Below are positions 1-5,958 of a stretch of DNA of 40,631 nt, piece after piece. The stretch is from Bacillota bacterium (GTDB lineage Bacteria; Bacillota; SHA-98; Ch115; JABLXJ01), in contig DUMQ01000009.1 of the NCBI GenBank assembly GCA_012839815.1, positions 1-40,631 of the forward strand, written 5' to 3'. The notes beneath the pieces are model-generated. The model saw nothing but the letters and a program-made list of their open reading frames with translations. It was not told where the DNA came from and did not search any database. Position 1 is the first letter of the stretch; each line of letters starts with the position of its first letter. Made by a program: the position numbers and the translations under genes.

Positions 1-2
1 CA

Positions 3-1229
3 TACAGATCAGCCTCATATGCTAAATATGAGGTTATCTTCGACACGAAGGGCAAAAGTACCTTCTCGGAATATTCCGACTACTTATTGAGAATATTCAG
101 CATTTCTACTGCGGAAAATGGGCTAAGACCACATAAGCGGGAAGACCTCATTACAAAGCTGGCTCCCGTGGAATATGACCCGGAGGCCGAATGCCCGACA
201 TGGAATAGCTTCCTCGACCGCATCATGGCGGGAAATAAAAAGTTGATCCGTTTCCTTCAAAAAGTTGTCGGATATTGCCTGACGGGGGATGTTTCGGAAC
301 AGGTGGTCTTCTTATGCTACGGGACAGGAGCGAACGGGAAATCAGTCTTCCTGCGAACCCTCCTTGCCGTCCTGGGGGATTATGGAAAGCCGATTGACCC
401 CGAGCTTCTCATGGTTCATCGGGGAGGTCAACATCCCACGGGACTTGCTGACCTCATGGGGGCACGGCTCGCCGTCGGCATTGAAACGACGGAGGGACGC
501 CAAATAAACGAAGCCCTTTTGAAATGGGTCACCGGAGGGGATACATTAAAAGCCAGGTTTATGAGACAGGATTTCTTTGAGTTTGATCCAACCCACAAAC
601 TGTGTATAGCCACCAACCACAAACCCCAGGTCCATGGAACGGATTATGCCTTCTGGCGGCGAATCAGACTGATTCCCTTTACCGTAACCATCCCGCCTGA
701 CGAGCAGGATAAACACTTGTTTGAGAAGTTAAAGGCCGAATTGTCTGGGATCCTCAAGTGGGCGGTAGAAGGTTGCCTTGCCTGGCAGAGGGAGGGACTC
801 GGTATCCCGTCTGAAGTTGCTCAGGCGACAGAGGCTTACCGGCAAGAAATGGATATAGTTGCCAATTTTCTGGCCTCAGAATGCATCATCAATCCACTAG
901 CTAAGGTAAAATCCGCTGACCTTTACTCAGCATATGTCGAATGGTGCCAGGCGTACGGTGAGCATCCATTGAGCCAGCGAAATCTGGGAATTAAGCTGTC
1001 CGAGAGGGGATTCCAAAGGCAAAAGAGTGATGGAATATTCTGGTGGCATGGGATAGGACTTTGTTACCAGAAACAGGAAAAACAGGGACGAAGGGACGAA
1101 CAGGGACCATTTTTCCATATAACACGCGAGAGCTCAAATTCCATAGGTTCATGCCGAAAGTTGGTCCCTGATGGTCCCTATCATCCCTGTTCTGACAATA
1201 ATTCCCAGAAGGAGGTGCTTGATCTGTGA
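3..1229 (+). CDS. P4-family primase/helicase C-terminal part, truncated at window edge
   Basis: The reading frame is open from the first complete codon in the window, so the 5' part of the gene lies outside; the TTG at 87 is probably not the true start. Counting from that TTG, a D5_N-like segment (PVEYDPEA about 27-34) precedes a Walker A motif GTGANGKS at 79-86, a Walker B-like RLAVGIET near 127, a sensor-like IATNHKP near 174 and FWRRIRLIPF. The C-terminal part resembles the winged-helix region of phage/plasmid P4-type primases (superfamily 3 helicase). Such proteins unwind and prime the replicon of integrative elements, plasmids and satellite phages. The N-terminal primase part cannot be judged. 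The last codons overlap the next gene by four bases (GTGA), suggesting translational coupling. Confidence in the helicase family is high; whether the gene is intact is unknown. Confidence 0.85.
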   Translation, partial: YRSASYAKYEVIFDTKGKSTFSEYSDYLLRIFSISTAENGLRPHKREDLITKLAPVEYDPEAECPTWNSFLDRIMAGNKKLIRFLQKVVGYCLTGDVSEQVVFLCYGTGANGKSVFLRTLLAVLGDYGKPIDPELLMVHRGGQHPTGLADLMGARLAVGIETTEGRQINEALLKWVTGGDTLKARFMRQDFFEFDPTHKLCIATNHKPQVHGTDYAFWRRIRLIPFTVTIPPDEQDKHLFEKLKAELSGILKWAVEGCLAWQREGLGIPSEVAQATEAYRQEMDIVANFLASECIINPLAKVKSADLYSAYVEWCQAYGEHPLSQRNLGIKLSERGFQRQKSDGIFWWHGIGLCYQKQEKQGRRDEQGPFFHITRESSNSIGSCRKLVPDGPYHPCSDNNSQKEVLDL

Positions 1230-1480
1230 CTCCTTCCGAGCTTTGGTTGACCCTTCAATCCCTTGGCGTGGAGCTATCTCTGAATGCTGATGGTGGTCTC
1301 CACGTTGAGGCCCCTGCTGGCGTGCTAACCCCGGCCCTGCGGCACGAGCTATGCGAACACAAGCCCGAGATCATGGCCCTGCTGTCGCGTCGTGTTGGCA
1401 TAGCTCCCGAGGCTGTGGCCGCCATCAAGGAGATCGAGCCCGTGGCCCTCTCCCTTGGTTGGACAGAGGCCCAGCTGTGA
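1226..1480 (+). CDS. TubC_N-type docking domain protein, frame closed early by TGA
   Basis: GTG start with the Shine-Dalgarno site AAGGAGGTG just upstream and a four-base overlap with the primase gene. The 84 residues contain a TubC N-terminal docking-like fold signature: an ELWLTLQSLGVEL helix, a VEAPAGVLTP strand/turn and a final helix HKPEIMALL. Small TubC_N-like proteins often sit next to primases in Gram-positive mobile elements; their role there is not established. The frame continues with convincing coding sequence after the TGA at 1478-1480, in a position where Trp would fit (see the next entry), so the complete protein was probably about 150-160 residues. I read this as the N-terminal half of a gene carrying a nonsense change or a recoded stop. 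Confidence 0.65.
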   Translation: MTPSELWLTLQSLGVELSLNADGGLHVEAPAGVLTPALRHELCEHKPEIMALLSRRVGIAPEAVAAIKEIEPVALSLGWTEAQL

Positions 1481-1711
1481 CAGATCAGCGGTCTGTATGC
1501 TGAGCGTGGCCTGGTTACATTCCTCCATCCTGGCTACAGGATTGGAAGAGTGGAGCGGGAGTATATCGAGCTTGTGATCAAGGAGGGGGATCGCGAGGTC
1601 ATTCAGAGGTTTTACAACCACCTCGGGAAGCAGCCCTGGACCAAAGATCAAAGAACGGGGGGTGTGAGGGATGGAGCGAAACATGAAAAGGGTCTACACC
1701 CTGACAAATAA
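1481..1711 (+). pseudogene. Continuation of the TubC_N-like gene after in-frame TGA
   Basis: Directly after TGA 1478-1480 the same frame stays open for 76 codons to TAA 1709-1711. It encodes ISGLYAERGLVTFLHPG, YRIGRVEREYIELVI and VIQRFYNHLGKQPW, which reads as genuine protein, not random sequence. From memory, longer relatives of the docking protein carry a similar R-I-G-x-V...R-F-Y-N...Q-P-W tail, and Trp is a natural residue at the TGA position (one base from TGG). The end overlaps the following CDS. It could be a pseudogene by nonsense mutation, a sequencing error, or a readthrough site; the sequence alone does not decide. Confidence 0.6.
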
Positions 1712-2219
1712 CATCAGGAACCTGGAGCTTTACCAGCACCTTGGCCCTGGAGATTACATGCTTTTCATGGACGCTAAGGGGAGGGGAAGCATTTTTGTAG
1801 TCTTCGGCGTGAAGGAGTGCAAGGGCATTCCCGACGGGGCGGGTTACCGCTATACCTTTTCTGCGATATCGCCCTCAGCGGCGACAGGTGGGCAGGCCCG
1901 GTTGCTACTCGAAATCGAGTTCGAAAAGCCTAAAAAGGAAATTCGCTTATCCTTTCCGGCCAAGGCTATACCACTACTCTTGGGTTCCTGCGAGCTGTAT
2001 GTGTTTATCGACAAAAAGCCGGAATGGCTGGATGCTGGCAGCATTATAGACGAGGATACCTTCCTGACGCTGGCGGAACGAGGCGGCGTCTCGTTCGACC
2101 TGAAAGAGGTAAGGGATGAGATTCTAAGGTTGGGCACCCTGGTGTTCCTGTTCCAGGCGGCTGTGGATTCAATAAGGCTATGCCAGGAGGCTGAAAAGAA
2201 GATAAGACAAGGGGGATGA
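1671..2219 (+). CDS. Hypothetical protein of the mobile element
   Basis: Unrecognised 182-residue protein. Two ATG starts are possible: 1671 (after GGGGGGTGTGAGGG) and 1683 (after GGAG, spacing 6); the second has the more regular ribosome binding site. The first half is rich in beta-strand-like segments (YMLFMDAKG, SIFVVFGVKE, LLLEIEFEKPKKEIRLSF), the rest is mixed, and the C-terminus is helical and charged (EAEKKIRQGG). There is no signal peptide or membrane span. It ends six bases before the regulator at 2226 and is in the same frame, so the two are likely co-transcribed. No function can be given. Confidence 0.6.
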   Translation: MERNMKRVYTLTNNIRNLELYQHLGPGDYMLFMDAKGRGSIFVVFGVKECKGIPDGAGYRYTFSAISPSAATGGQARLLLEIEFEKPKKEIRLSFPAKAIPLLLGSCELYVFIDKKPEWLDAGSIIDEDTFLTLAERGGVSFDLKEVRDEILRLGTLVFLFQAAVDSIRLCQEAEKKIRQGG

Positions 2220-2225
2220 GCCAGC

Positions 2226-2528
2226 ATGAGGTTGCCGAACAACATCCGCATCTATCGCATTCAGTTGGGTCTAAGCCAGGCCGAACTGATCCGTATGGTC
2301 AATGAGCGGTTGGCACTCCGCGGCGAGAACCGCCAAATGTATTTTGTCGACCTTGCAAAAGCCGAGAAGGGAACCGGGCTTTTGAACAAGGCTCAGTTAA
2401 CTGAGATCGCAAGGATTCTAGGCTTCAAGCCCTGGGCGTTGTATGGCGATGACCCTCAGATCATTCGCCCCGACTATGAAGACGAGTTTGAACCATCGGG
2501 GCCTGCGATTGTGAGACCGCGACGCTAG
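2226..2528 (+). CDS. XRE (Cro/C1-type) helix-turn-helix regulator
   Basis: A 100-residue protein whose first 75 residues fit a Cro/C1 helix-turn-helix: NIRIYRIQLGLSQAELIRMV (helices 1 and 2), then the recognition region with YFVDLAKAEKGTG, and helix 4 LTEIARILGFKPWALYG. The C-terminal 25 residues are acidic and then proline/arginine rich and probably disordered. The start ATG follows GGGGGATGAG. It closes the plus-strand gene run of the element, and such regulators usually control excision or replication genes. Palindromes downstream at 2679-2696 and 2892-2905 are candidate operators; that link is inference. Confidence 0.75.
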   Translation: MRLPNNIRIYRIQLGLSQAELIRMVNERLALRGENRQMYFVDLAKAEKGTGLLNKAQLTEIARILGFKPWALYGDDPQIIRPDYEDEFEPSGPAIVRPRR

Positions 2529-2563
2529 CGTGACGGAATCACGGGAAAGGAGGGGAATGGGCT

Positions 2564-2668
2564 ATGAACATAATCGTCTTCCTCTGCGGCATTGCAGGCG
2601 GCATTGTATACTGAAAGACATTAGAATTCCTGAGGGACCGGATGCTTGCTAGAAAAAGGGCAAACTGA
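2564..2668 (+). pseudogene. Small membrane peptide gene with in-frame TGA
   Basis: An ATG at 2564 follows AAAGGAGGGG. It opens MNIIVFLCGIAGGIVY, a hydrophobic span, then meets TGA at 2612-2614. The same frame continues KTLEFLRDRMLARKRAN to a second TGA at 2666-2668. The joined product, about 34 residues with Trp at the TGA, would be a plausible single-span peptide with a basic tail. Either the 16-residue form is made, or the gene is broken, or the TGA is read through. This is the second case in the element of a TGA where Trp would fit. Confidence is limited by the short length. Confidence 0.4.
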
Positions 2669-2678
2669 AGGCTATAAT

Positions 2679-2696
2679 GTGCCCATTTTTGGGCAC
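2679..2696. promoter_or_regulatory. Inverted repeat directly after a TATAAT box
   Basis: GTGCCCA-tttt-TGGGCAC, seven-base perfect arms. It begins immediately after TATAAT at 2673-2678, where a repressor would block initiation if TATAAT is a real -10 box. The matching -35 is weak (TAGAAA at 17-base spacing). It lies 150 bases after the XRE regulator gene, so it is a candidate operator; it could also be a small hairpin in RNA. Confidence 0.35.
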
Positions 2697-2891
2697 CTGC
2701 GTTTCCCTGATCTATACCCCACAGCGTGCACGTTTTGTGCATAAGGCATCTCGCTCCTGCTCCCGCTTCGCGTGCCCCGTGCCCCGCGGCACGCGTTGCT
2801 TCCCCCTGACATACCTACACCACAGTTGAGTTTTGAGCGGGGGCTTCTCTCCTACGTAGTTTCCACGGCTCCTCCCCCGCCGCTACCCACC

Positions 2892-2905
2892 TTGACAATT
2901 GTCAA
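2892..2905. promoter_or_regulatory. Perfect 14-base palindrome containing TTGACA
   Basis: TTGACAATTGTCAA is fully self-complementary and presents a consensus -35 element on both strands, so bidirectional promoter or operator use is possible. No good -10 box follows at 17 bases on the plus strand. Location downstream of the XRE regulator makes operator use plausible but unproven. Confidence 0.35.
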
Positions 2906-3383
2906 AAAGGTCAAATCTTGCAGCGATTTTCGAGGCGGGGTATTACCCGCTCCGCTCGCCGCTGCGAGGGGGCATCCCGGGTCCCCACGCGGGGGCTTTG
3001 CAAGCAGCGTCGCGGGGTGCGGCACGCCCTTGCAAGCCAGCCTGTGGGCTCCAGAACGGGCCTAGGAGCCTGTTTGTGGGGCAGGGGAATATGTTTTTCC
3101 CAAGGGAACGTCGCTCGACCCGTCCTGAACGAAATCTGAGGCCCGGGAGCGGGGCATAGTAGGCGGGGCAGGGTGGCATGGACGGTCCATAGGCAAGTTG
3201 ACATAAGGTCCATTACGCGACGTGAGACTGGGCACCAGAACACAGAAAGACGATTCTGAGCCATTTACAAGTAGCAAAATCCGAATTTACAAAATACAAA
3301 AGAATATTTCTTAAAATCTTGCAGGATTTCTTGATAGCTCGTCGAATCTCTTAATTGCTAATAAAGCGGGGAGGTGAATAAGC

Positions 3384-3641
3384 GTGGCTATCGTGGTAAA
3401 TGTTTCTAAATATACTGATTGTGCAGCGTCCCTGATAGAGCTGTTAATGGCCTGGGGGGAGGATGTTACAGGAGACATGAGCCGGCTCTTACAAGCGATT
3501 TCGGAGCTAGATCAGGCAGTGAGAGATGGTAACCTAGAAGAGTGTAGGAGGATTATCGACGGGTTATCGGAGTTGAGGGAGAGGAATACCGAGCTTGAAG
3601 AGATGGGAATCTGGAGAAGTATGGAAGAATTATCGAATTGA
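3384..3641 (+). CDS. Small hypothetical helical protein
   Basis: GTG start with a strong ribosome binding site, GGGGAGGTG at 3368-3376. The 85 residues are acidic and almost wholly helical (LIELLMAWGEDV, RLLQAISELDQAV, LSELRERNTELEEMG), with a possible short coiled coil at 60-75. There are no membrane spans and no recognised domain. It stands alone between the long intergenic region and a hairpin at 3653-3688, so it is probably transcribed separately as a cargo gene of the element. Function unknown. Confidence 0.55.
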   Translation: MAIVVNVSKYTDCAASLIELLMAWGEDVTGDMSRLLQAISELDQAVRDGNLEECRRIIDGLSELRERNTELEEMGIWRSMEELSN

Positions 3642-4791: not shown

Positions 4792-5733
4792 TCAATCCCG
4801 ACGCAGTTTTCTGACCCTATGGGCCTGAGGCATGAGTTTATTTAGCGGGTTTGCTTTCGCCATAGCCTCCCGTAGGTCAGACTCCACGAGGTTGACGTAT
4901 CTTCTGGTCATGTTCATGGTGGAGTGTCTCAGCATCGCCTGAACCACAAAGGCGTTAGCTCCTCCCCGAAGCGTCTCTATGGCGAATGAATGCCGAAGCA
5001 TATACGGCGTAACCTTGGTTCCCAGCTTCTTACTATACCTCTCCAGCCTGTCCCCAAATTCATCAACCGTCAGGGGCCTCCCCGAATATGAGCAGAATAC
5101 CGGAACATTGCCATGCCATGAAGGGTGACGGGCGTTAAGCAGTTCTCTGATAGCCTCGGCTACCTGAGGAGGTATGGGTAATACTGCTTCCTGTCTTGTC
5201 TTCGATACGCTGCTCTTTATGGTAATAGATAAGCCCCGCAGGTTTATATCAGCGGGTAGGATTGATAGAGCCTCTCCTGGCCGTATGCCGGTTGCGAGGG
5301 TGAGAAGTATCAAGGCGTAATCCCGCAGCCCGGAGAACGTTGACCTATCCGGCAGGGAAAGTAGTCTCTGGAGGACATCCTCTGGCAGGTGTCTGATCTT
5401 GCCGGGGTCCTTCTTTTTTGGAATGTCGTGAAAAGGATTCCGAGGGAAGATGCCTTCACGGACACACCAGGAGAAGAATGCCTTGAGGTATTCACGCCTT
5501 AAATTGAATGTAGCAGGCATGATATCCTCTGCCATGTATTCGAGTACTCTCTGCCGAAGGTTTGCCGGGTTGTAGGCGTCGGGGTAGCGGGTGAAGAACT
5601 GGGTGATATGTTTCCGGTAATCTGTAAGTGTTCTGGGTGCTATGCCTTGGGCCTGCTTCCAAAAGAGGAAATCCTGGAGTGCATCCTGCCATGTCCCTGG
5701 AATTTTCTTGTCGATACGCAGAATCTTTCCCAT
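4792..5733 (-). CDS. Tyrosine-type site-specific recombinase (integrase)
   Basis: A 313-residue integrase of the XerC/D-like phage integrase family. Residues 12-100 form a core-binding SAM-like domain (TLTDYRKHITQFF), and the catalytic domain follows. Visible catalytic positions are Arg in TGIRPGEAL, Lys in the KSSVSKTRQE region, LRHSFAIETL, the RHSTMNMTRRY box and the nucleophile Tyr279. The first His of the usual HxLRH box is Tyr here (YMLRH), an uncommon but tolerated change. The start ATG has AGGAGGT upstream, buried in a possible hairpin. The gene lies 150 bases from the 3' end of tRNA-Trp, so it most likely integrates the element into that tRNA gene. Confidence 0.92.
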   Translation of the reverse strand: MGKILRIDKKIPGTWQDALQDFLFWKQAQGIAPRTLTDYRKHITQFFTRYPDAYNPANLRQRVLEYMAEDIMPATFNLRREYLKAFFSWCVREGIFPRNPFHDIPKKKDPGKIRHLPEDVLQRLLSLPDRSTFSGLRDYALILLTLATGIRPGEALSILPADINLRGLSITIKSSVSKTRQEAVLPIPPQVAEAIRELLNARHPSWHGNVPVFCSYSGRPLTVDEFGDRLERYSKKLGTKVTPYMLRHSFAIETLRGGANAFVVQAMLRHSTMNMTRRYVNLVESDLREAMAKANPLNKLMPQAHRVRKLRRD

Positions 5734-5819: not shown

Positions 5820-5882
5820 CTCACATTTTATGCAGGATACTGGGTCTCATTTCCAATACTGCTCTAGCAGCCCAAATAAAAA

Positions 5883-5958
5883 TGGCAGGGGAGACAGGAC
5901 TTGAACCCGCAACCTACGGTTTTGGAGACCGCCGCTCTGCCAGTTGAGCTACTCCCCT
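5883..5958 (-). tRNA. tRNA-Trp (anticodon CCA)
   Basis: The minus strand folds as a full 76-base tRNA with encoded CCA. The acceptor is AGGGGAG/CTCCCCT, the D arm GCTC...GAGC, the anticodon arm GCGGT-CTCCAAA-ACCGT with anticodon CCA, the T arm GCGGG-TTCAAGT-CCTGT, and the discriminator G. It decodes UGG. Its 3' end faces the integrase gene and is the probable attachment site of the element at 1-5880. An excellent promoter lies upstream (6002-6030). Confidence 0.96.

Follow-up and report, generated by a model that had tools for sequence, protein, structure and literature searches.

In-frame TGA codons at which tryptophan would fit were noted in two neighbouring genes of an integrated element of a Bacillota bacterium, one encoding a TubC_N-like protein (gene 1) and the other a putative small membrane peptide (gene 2). 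From the sequence alone, two independent nonsense mutations were suggested, and decay of the element, UGA readthrough and decoding of UGA as Trp were offered as possible reasons. The question is which of these best accounts for the codons. The window, i.e. the whole stretch of 40,631 nucleotides analysed here, is contig C73 of a draft genome assembled in 163 contigs.

The frame of gene 1 spans 162 codons (1226-1712) and contains one internal TGA, after which the next 76 codons are open up to a TAA. Translation with the TGA read as Trp gives a protein of 161 aa. Its N-terminal 55 residues match the TubC_N domain (PF18563) with 42.8 bits, well above the curated cut-off of 26. An AlphaFold model of the protein is confident for TubC_N (residues 1-50, mean pLDDT of at least 90) and moderate to low in confidence afterwards, so that the 84-aa product is predicted to retain its first domain. 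Downstream of the TGA, codon usage favours the gene 1 frame, and 76 open codons are expected from composition alone in ~1.8% of shuffles. Together with the phage-protein homology described below, these results bear out the earlier claim that the gene runs on convincingly past its TGA. Apart from this one codon the frame is clean on both sides; given that the coding bias is also kept, either the lesion arose very recently or the base is erroneous.

Searches of related genomes with gene 1 gave at first only N-terminal TubC_N matches, and the C-terminal part was then searched alone. This query, covering the region around and after the TGA, identified a 102-aa ORF in genome G043 (L008) and a 110-aa ORF in genome G386 (L009), while four of its six non-self matches (L010-L013) were dropped because they are located in unrelated proteins. 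Further homologues of the second domain are found on three viral contigs (L015, L016 and L022). All five are stand-alone proteins of ~93-110 aa sharing the motif GWSxxxLWExRFWNI...NRPGLAALMxPGDxI...YIE...RFYHPD, and a Pfam scan of one member (L016) returned no family match. At the column of the gene 1 TGA, each of these five independent homologues has Trp and none has a stop, as anticipated from the sequence-only reading, in which TGG was thought to give a sensible protein and an alignment with homologues was proposed as the check. In the MAFFT alignment the TGA faces the second Trp of LWExRFW, and an alternative ungapped alignment (GWTEAQL-TGA against GWSPELLW) places it opposite the first; both candidate columns are Trp in every homologue. 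The TGA falls within the second domain and not at a domain boundary. Selenocysteine at this codon was set aside, since the homologues carry Trp.

Judged from these domain matches, the gene 1 protein is a fusion of TubC_N with a small phage-type domain. No close copy of the joined protein came up when the viral, GTDB and phage collections were searched directly, and the plasmid collection gave two matches, N-terminal only, in annotated peptide-synthetase-type genes. The likeness to TubC_N docking-domain proteins is confined to the N-terminal match above the cut-off: gene 1 is not part of a peptide synthetase, and follows a replication gene as in five relatives (L002, L003, L004, L005 and L006), with a different C-terminal part. 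It is noted that in all five of these loci a TubC_N-type gene (~90-118 aa) lies directly after the replication gene, which encodes a primase or helicase-like protein, and that the C-terminal parts vary. The replication module in these loci recurrently has a TubC_N-type gene as its partner.

The second frame is much less secure. It consists of 16 codons, the TGA, 17 further codons and a terminal TGA, and would give a 34-aa peptide with the internal TGA read as Trp. The start is plausible, with a ribosome-binding-site-like GGAGG upstream, and codon usage over the whole frame is mildly coding-like (shuffle p ~0.001). Shuffles give 17 open codons after the TGA by chance in 34% of cases. Searches of 399 genomes of the phylum gave no credible homologue, the best E value of 0.019 per genome being at chance level over 399; the small-peptide matches that were inspected resembled chance matches. 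Relatives of the neighbouring 182-aa and 100-aa genes were also sought, for elements with a matching small peptide, and none were found. The frame may be a gene, and the proposal that its TGA replaces Trp finds no support. The 17-codon extension described earlier is present, but its standing as part of a gene is unproven. Because there is no credible homologue and the open run is readily explained by chance, two independent nonsense mutations are not established. Further along, the ~700 bp between this frame and an 85-aa gene at 3384 (2670-3380) show no coding-like composition in any frame.

The left end of the window cuts the element, which continues on contig C56; the joined element measures ~9.0 kb (C56 contributes 3.2 kb, the window 5.8 kb), not counting an insertion sequence (IS). 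It is bounded by two identical 94-bp copies of tRNA-Trp(CCA) with 18 nt, one per end, and its integrase lies beside the tRNA, as expected for a tRNA-integrated mobile element with the att core duplicated at both ends. The element seemingly brought a whole extra tRNA-Trp, not merely a 3' fragment. No second copy of the element, by which the changes could be polarised, was found in the collections searched. The coordinates of the features are collected in Table 1.

Table 1. Features of the integrated element in the window and on contig C56 (window coordinates unless a contig is named).
Feature	Position	Strand	Evidence or remark
Inner part of one IS end (right junction), interrupting the primase	1-122		Inverted repeat CTACTGCGGAAAATGGG at 106-122
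Target-site duplication CTAAG, 5 bp	123-127		CTAAG also borders the other IS end, C56:51971-51975
3' part of IS-interrupted P4-type primase/helicase gene	123-1229	+	Matches to TIGR01613, PF19263, PF08706, phrog_6088
Readable TubC_N protein of gene 1, 84 aa, up to the apparently premature TGA	1226-1480	+	PF18563, E=5.5e-11, residues 9-54
In-frame TGA at conserved Trp position (W85 column)	1478-1480	+	Homologue alignment
Rest of gene 1 frame: small phage-protein domain, stop TAA	1481-1712	+	Homologues L008, L009, L015, L016, L022; in-frame coding bias
182-aa gene, intact, ends TGA	1671-2219	+	ORF; no family match
100-aa gene, XRE-like by eye, ends TAG	2226-2528	+	ORF; weak phrog_3 regulator match, E=0.07
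Putative small membrane peptide frame (gene 2), unvalidated	2564-2668	+	TGA 2612-2614, terminal TGA 2666-2668
Tyrosine recombinase (integrase) adjoining tRNA-Trp, intact, ends TGA	4792-5733	-	PF00589, E=2e-27
att copy: complete tRNA-Trp(CCA) + 18 nt, 94 bp	5865-5958	-	Identical to C56:48802-48895 (L095:2803-2896)
Treble-clef zinc-finger gene split between two overlapping frames	C56 ~49,040-50,050 (L095:3045-4066)	-	Break at T5 run

The element carries other damage. Its primase gene is interrupted by the IS, and the 5' part sits at the extreme end of contig C56 (match C56:51602-51982, the 5' part ending at 51975). When the flanks on C56 and in the window are joined at CTAAG, an open frame of 737 codons results, collinear with the intact primases of L004 and L006. 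The head of the window and the tail of C56 share a 19-base inverted match, corresponding to the two ends of the IS. It is identified as an insertion sequence by its inverted repeats, its target duplication and its presence in multiple copies; only ~120 bp of each of its ends are present in the contigs. The terminal repeat recurs on contigs C40 (L088), C31 (L089), C160 (L090) and C54 (L091), mostly near contig ends, and the IS tail on C56 is 97.6% identical to that on C160 over 127 bp, which indicates a multi-copy IS. It should be mentioned that the IS family with the terminal repeat CTACTGCGGAAAATGRG breaks the assembly at several contigs (window 1-127; C56:51971-52097; C160, C54, C40 and C31), and that CTAAG borders this family at every junction seen on that side; CTWAG is suggested as its target.

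Another element gene, on C56, is probably frameshifted. In the homologue L102 of this zinc-finger gene, FLN...DIRDFALRYGLLG is read in a single frame that matches both halves of the C56 gene, while in one search no significantly aligned homologue was found across the frame junction. The T5 run at the break is a type of site prone to sequencing errors. We infer that the frameshift is a genuine lesion. The integrase and several small element genes are intact. Altogether, breaks affect ~3 of 12 element genes, compared to none among the window's 24 host genes (Fisher p=0.03, with small counts and an author-chosen list of element genes); all 24 host genes that were checked, over ~34 kb, are intact ORFs. 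The option of decay raised at the outset is thus supported by the IS in the primase and by the apparent frameshift.

Stop usage and tRNA content speak against UGA as a sense codon in this organism. Of the window's 24 host genes, 12 end in TGA, as do four of the seven other element genes counted (the primase, the 182-aa gene, the 85-aa gene and the integrase). Trp is encoded by TGG 93 times in the host genes, and TGG is present in all seven element genes checked. Rfam finds 43 tRNA matches in the genome, and ARAGORN assigns anticodons for 42; no tRNA with a UCA anticodon, which the sequence-only reading had proposed to look for in the element, is among these 42. The genome has two tRNA-Trp genes, both CCA, one at each element end. 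The points raised earlier against recoding (TGA stops, TGG for Trp and a CCA tRNA-Trp) were all found. A 58-nt tRNA-like match at C136:19218-19275 (L087), just above the Rfam cut-off (30.6 bits) and not called by ARAGORN, is perhaps a tRNA fragment. Changes of tRNA-Trp at positions 9, 24 and 27-43 have been reported to raise UGA reading (PMC13092985). The tRNA-Trp of the window (5883-5958) has none of the suppressor changes tested (Hirsh G24A, A9C and the 4-bp anticodon stem): G24 and A9 are kept, and the stem has five pairable positions, with a G27-U43 wobble as its top pair.

We consider it probable that the gene 1 TGA is a TGG-to-TGA nonsense mutation in a degenerating ~9-kb element bounded by tRNA-Trp. 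The stop lies inside a frame that the homologues continue, and other independent lesions are found in the same element, as in a nonsense pseudogene. It is the disrupted primase and the probable frameshift in the same element, next to 24 host genes without visible lesions, that make this the best reading. A conserved Trp codon would have become TGA by a one-base change from an ancestral TGG, and translation would now stop after 84 codons, with TubC_N kept and the second, phage-type domain lost. We infer that the TGA base is real in the organism; selection for autonomous replication of the element has presumably been lost. The main rival, an assembly or sequencing error, seems unlikely: the organism would have TGG, the T-run frameshift on C56 would be an error too, and the IS insertion would remain genuine. 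It draws on the otherwise clean frame on both sides of the TGA, on the draft state of the genome and on the homopolymer at the other small lesion. However, the intact host genes make the error rate look low, and an erroneous indel would be more likely than an erroneous substitution at a conserved Trp codon.

Readthrough of the UGA by tRNA-Trp(CCA), yielding a minor full-length TubC_N-phage-domain protein with a functional role beside the 84-aa form, is distinctly improbable, and no positive evidence was found for this option of the earlier reading. The truncated product does retain the whole TubC_N domain. The base after the gene 1 TGA is C, reportedly a context of inefficient termination, and misreading of UGA by tRNA-Trp can occur in E. 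coli and B. subtilis (PMC5289835); a tRNA-Trp gene is also present at either end of the element. Against readthrough, the stop falls within the second domain instead of at its boundary, the homologues carry Trp in place of a stop, the tRNA-Trp lacks the suppressor changes tested, and the other lesions give a simpler account of the stop. A variant, in which the second tRNA-Trp(CCA) of the element, with its weak G27-U43 closing pair, raises dosage and the element's own UGAs are read at low frequency to give the 84-aa form plus a longer fusion, is still less probable. Decoding of UGA as Trp by the host or the element (genetic code 4) is practically excluded. One Trp column does carry TGA, as in known UGA-to-Trp recoding; in contrast to those systems, with a UCA or 4-bp anticodon-stem tRNA-Trp, TGA here serves as an ordinary stop in the host as well as in the element, and the tRNA-Trp is CCA with five pairable stem positions. 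The stop usage and the tRNA content, together with the TGG codons, led us to reject recoding, contrary to the third option considered at the outset.

Among known systems, the element comes closest to degenerate prophages and integrative elements with pseudogenes and IS insertions, which it resembles in the integrase next to a tRNA, the att duplication, the IS-disrupted P4-type primase and the stop and frameshift lesions. It differs from them in that the parts of it that were examined show no phage structural gene, and in that searches of phage and viral collections yielded no close relative of the TubC_N fusion, the integrase or the accessory genes.

If readthrough were true after all, a tRNA-integrating element would be tuning termination in its own genes. 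Independently of how the TGA arose, the alignments define a small phage-protein domain with the GWSxxxLWExRFWNI motif, the one member scanned by Pfam having no family. The locus also offers a caution for the reading of mobile elements: where other genes of an element are broken, a TGA that stands in frame at a Trp column is most simply taken as a nonsense mutation.
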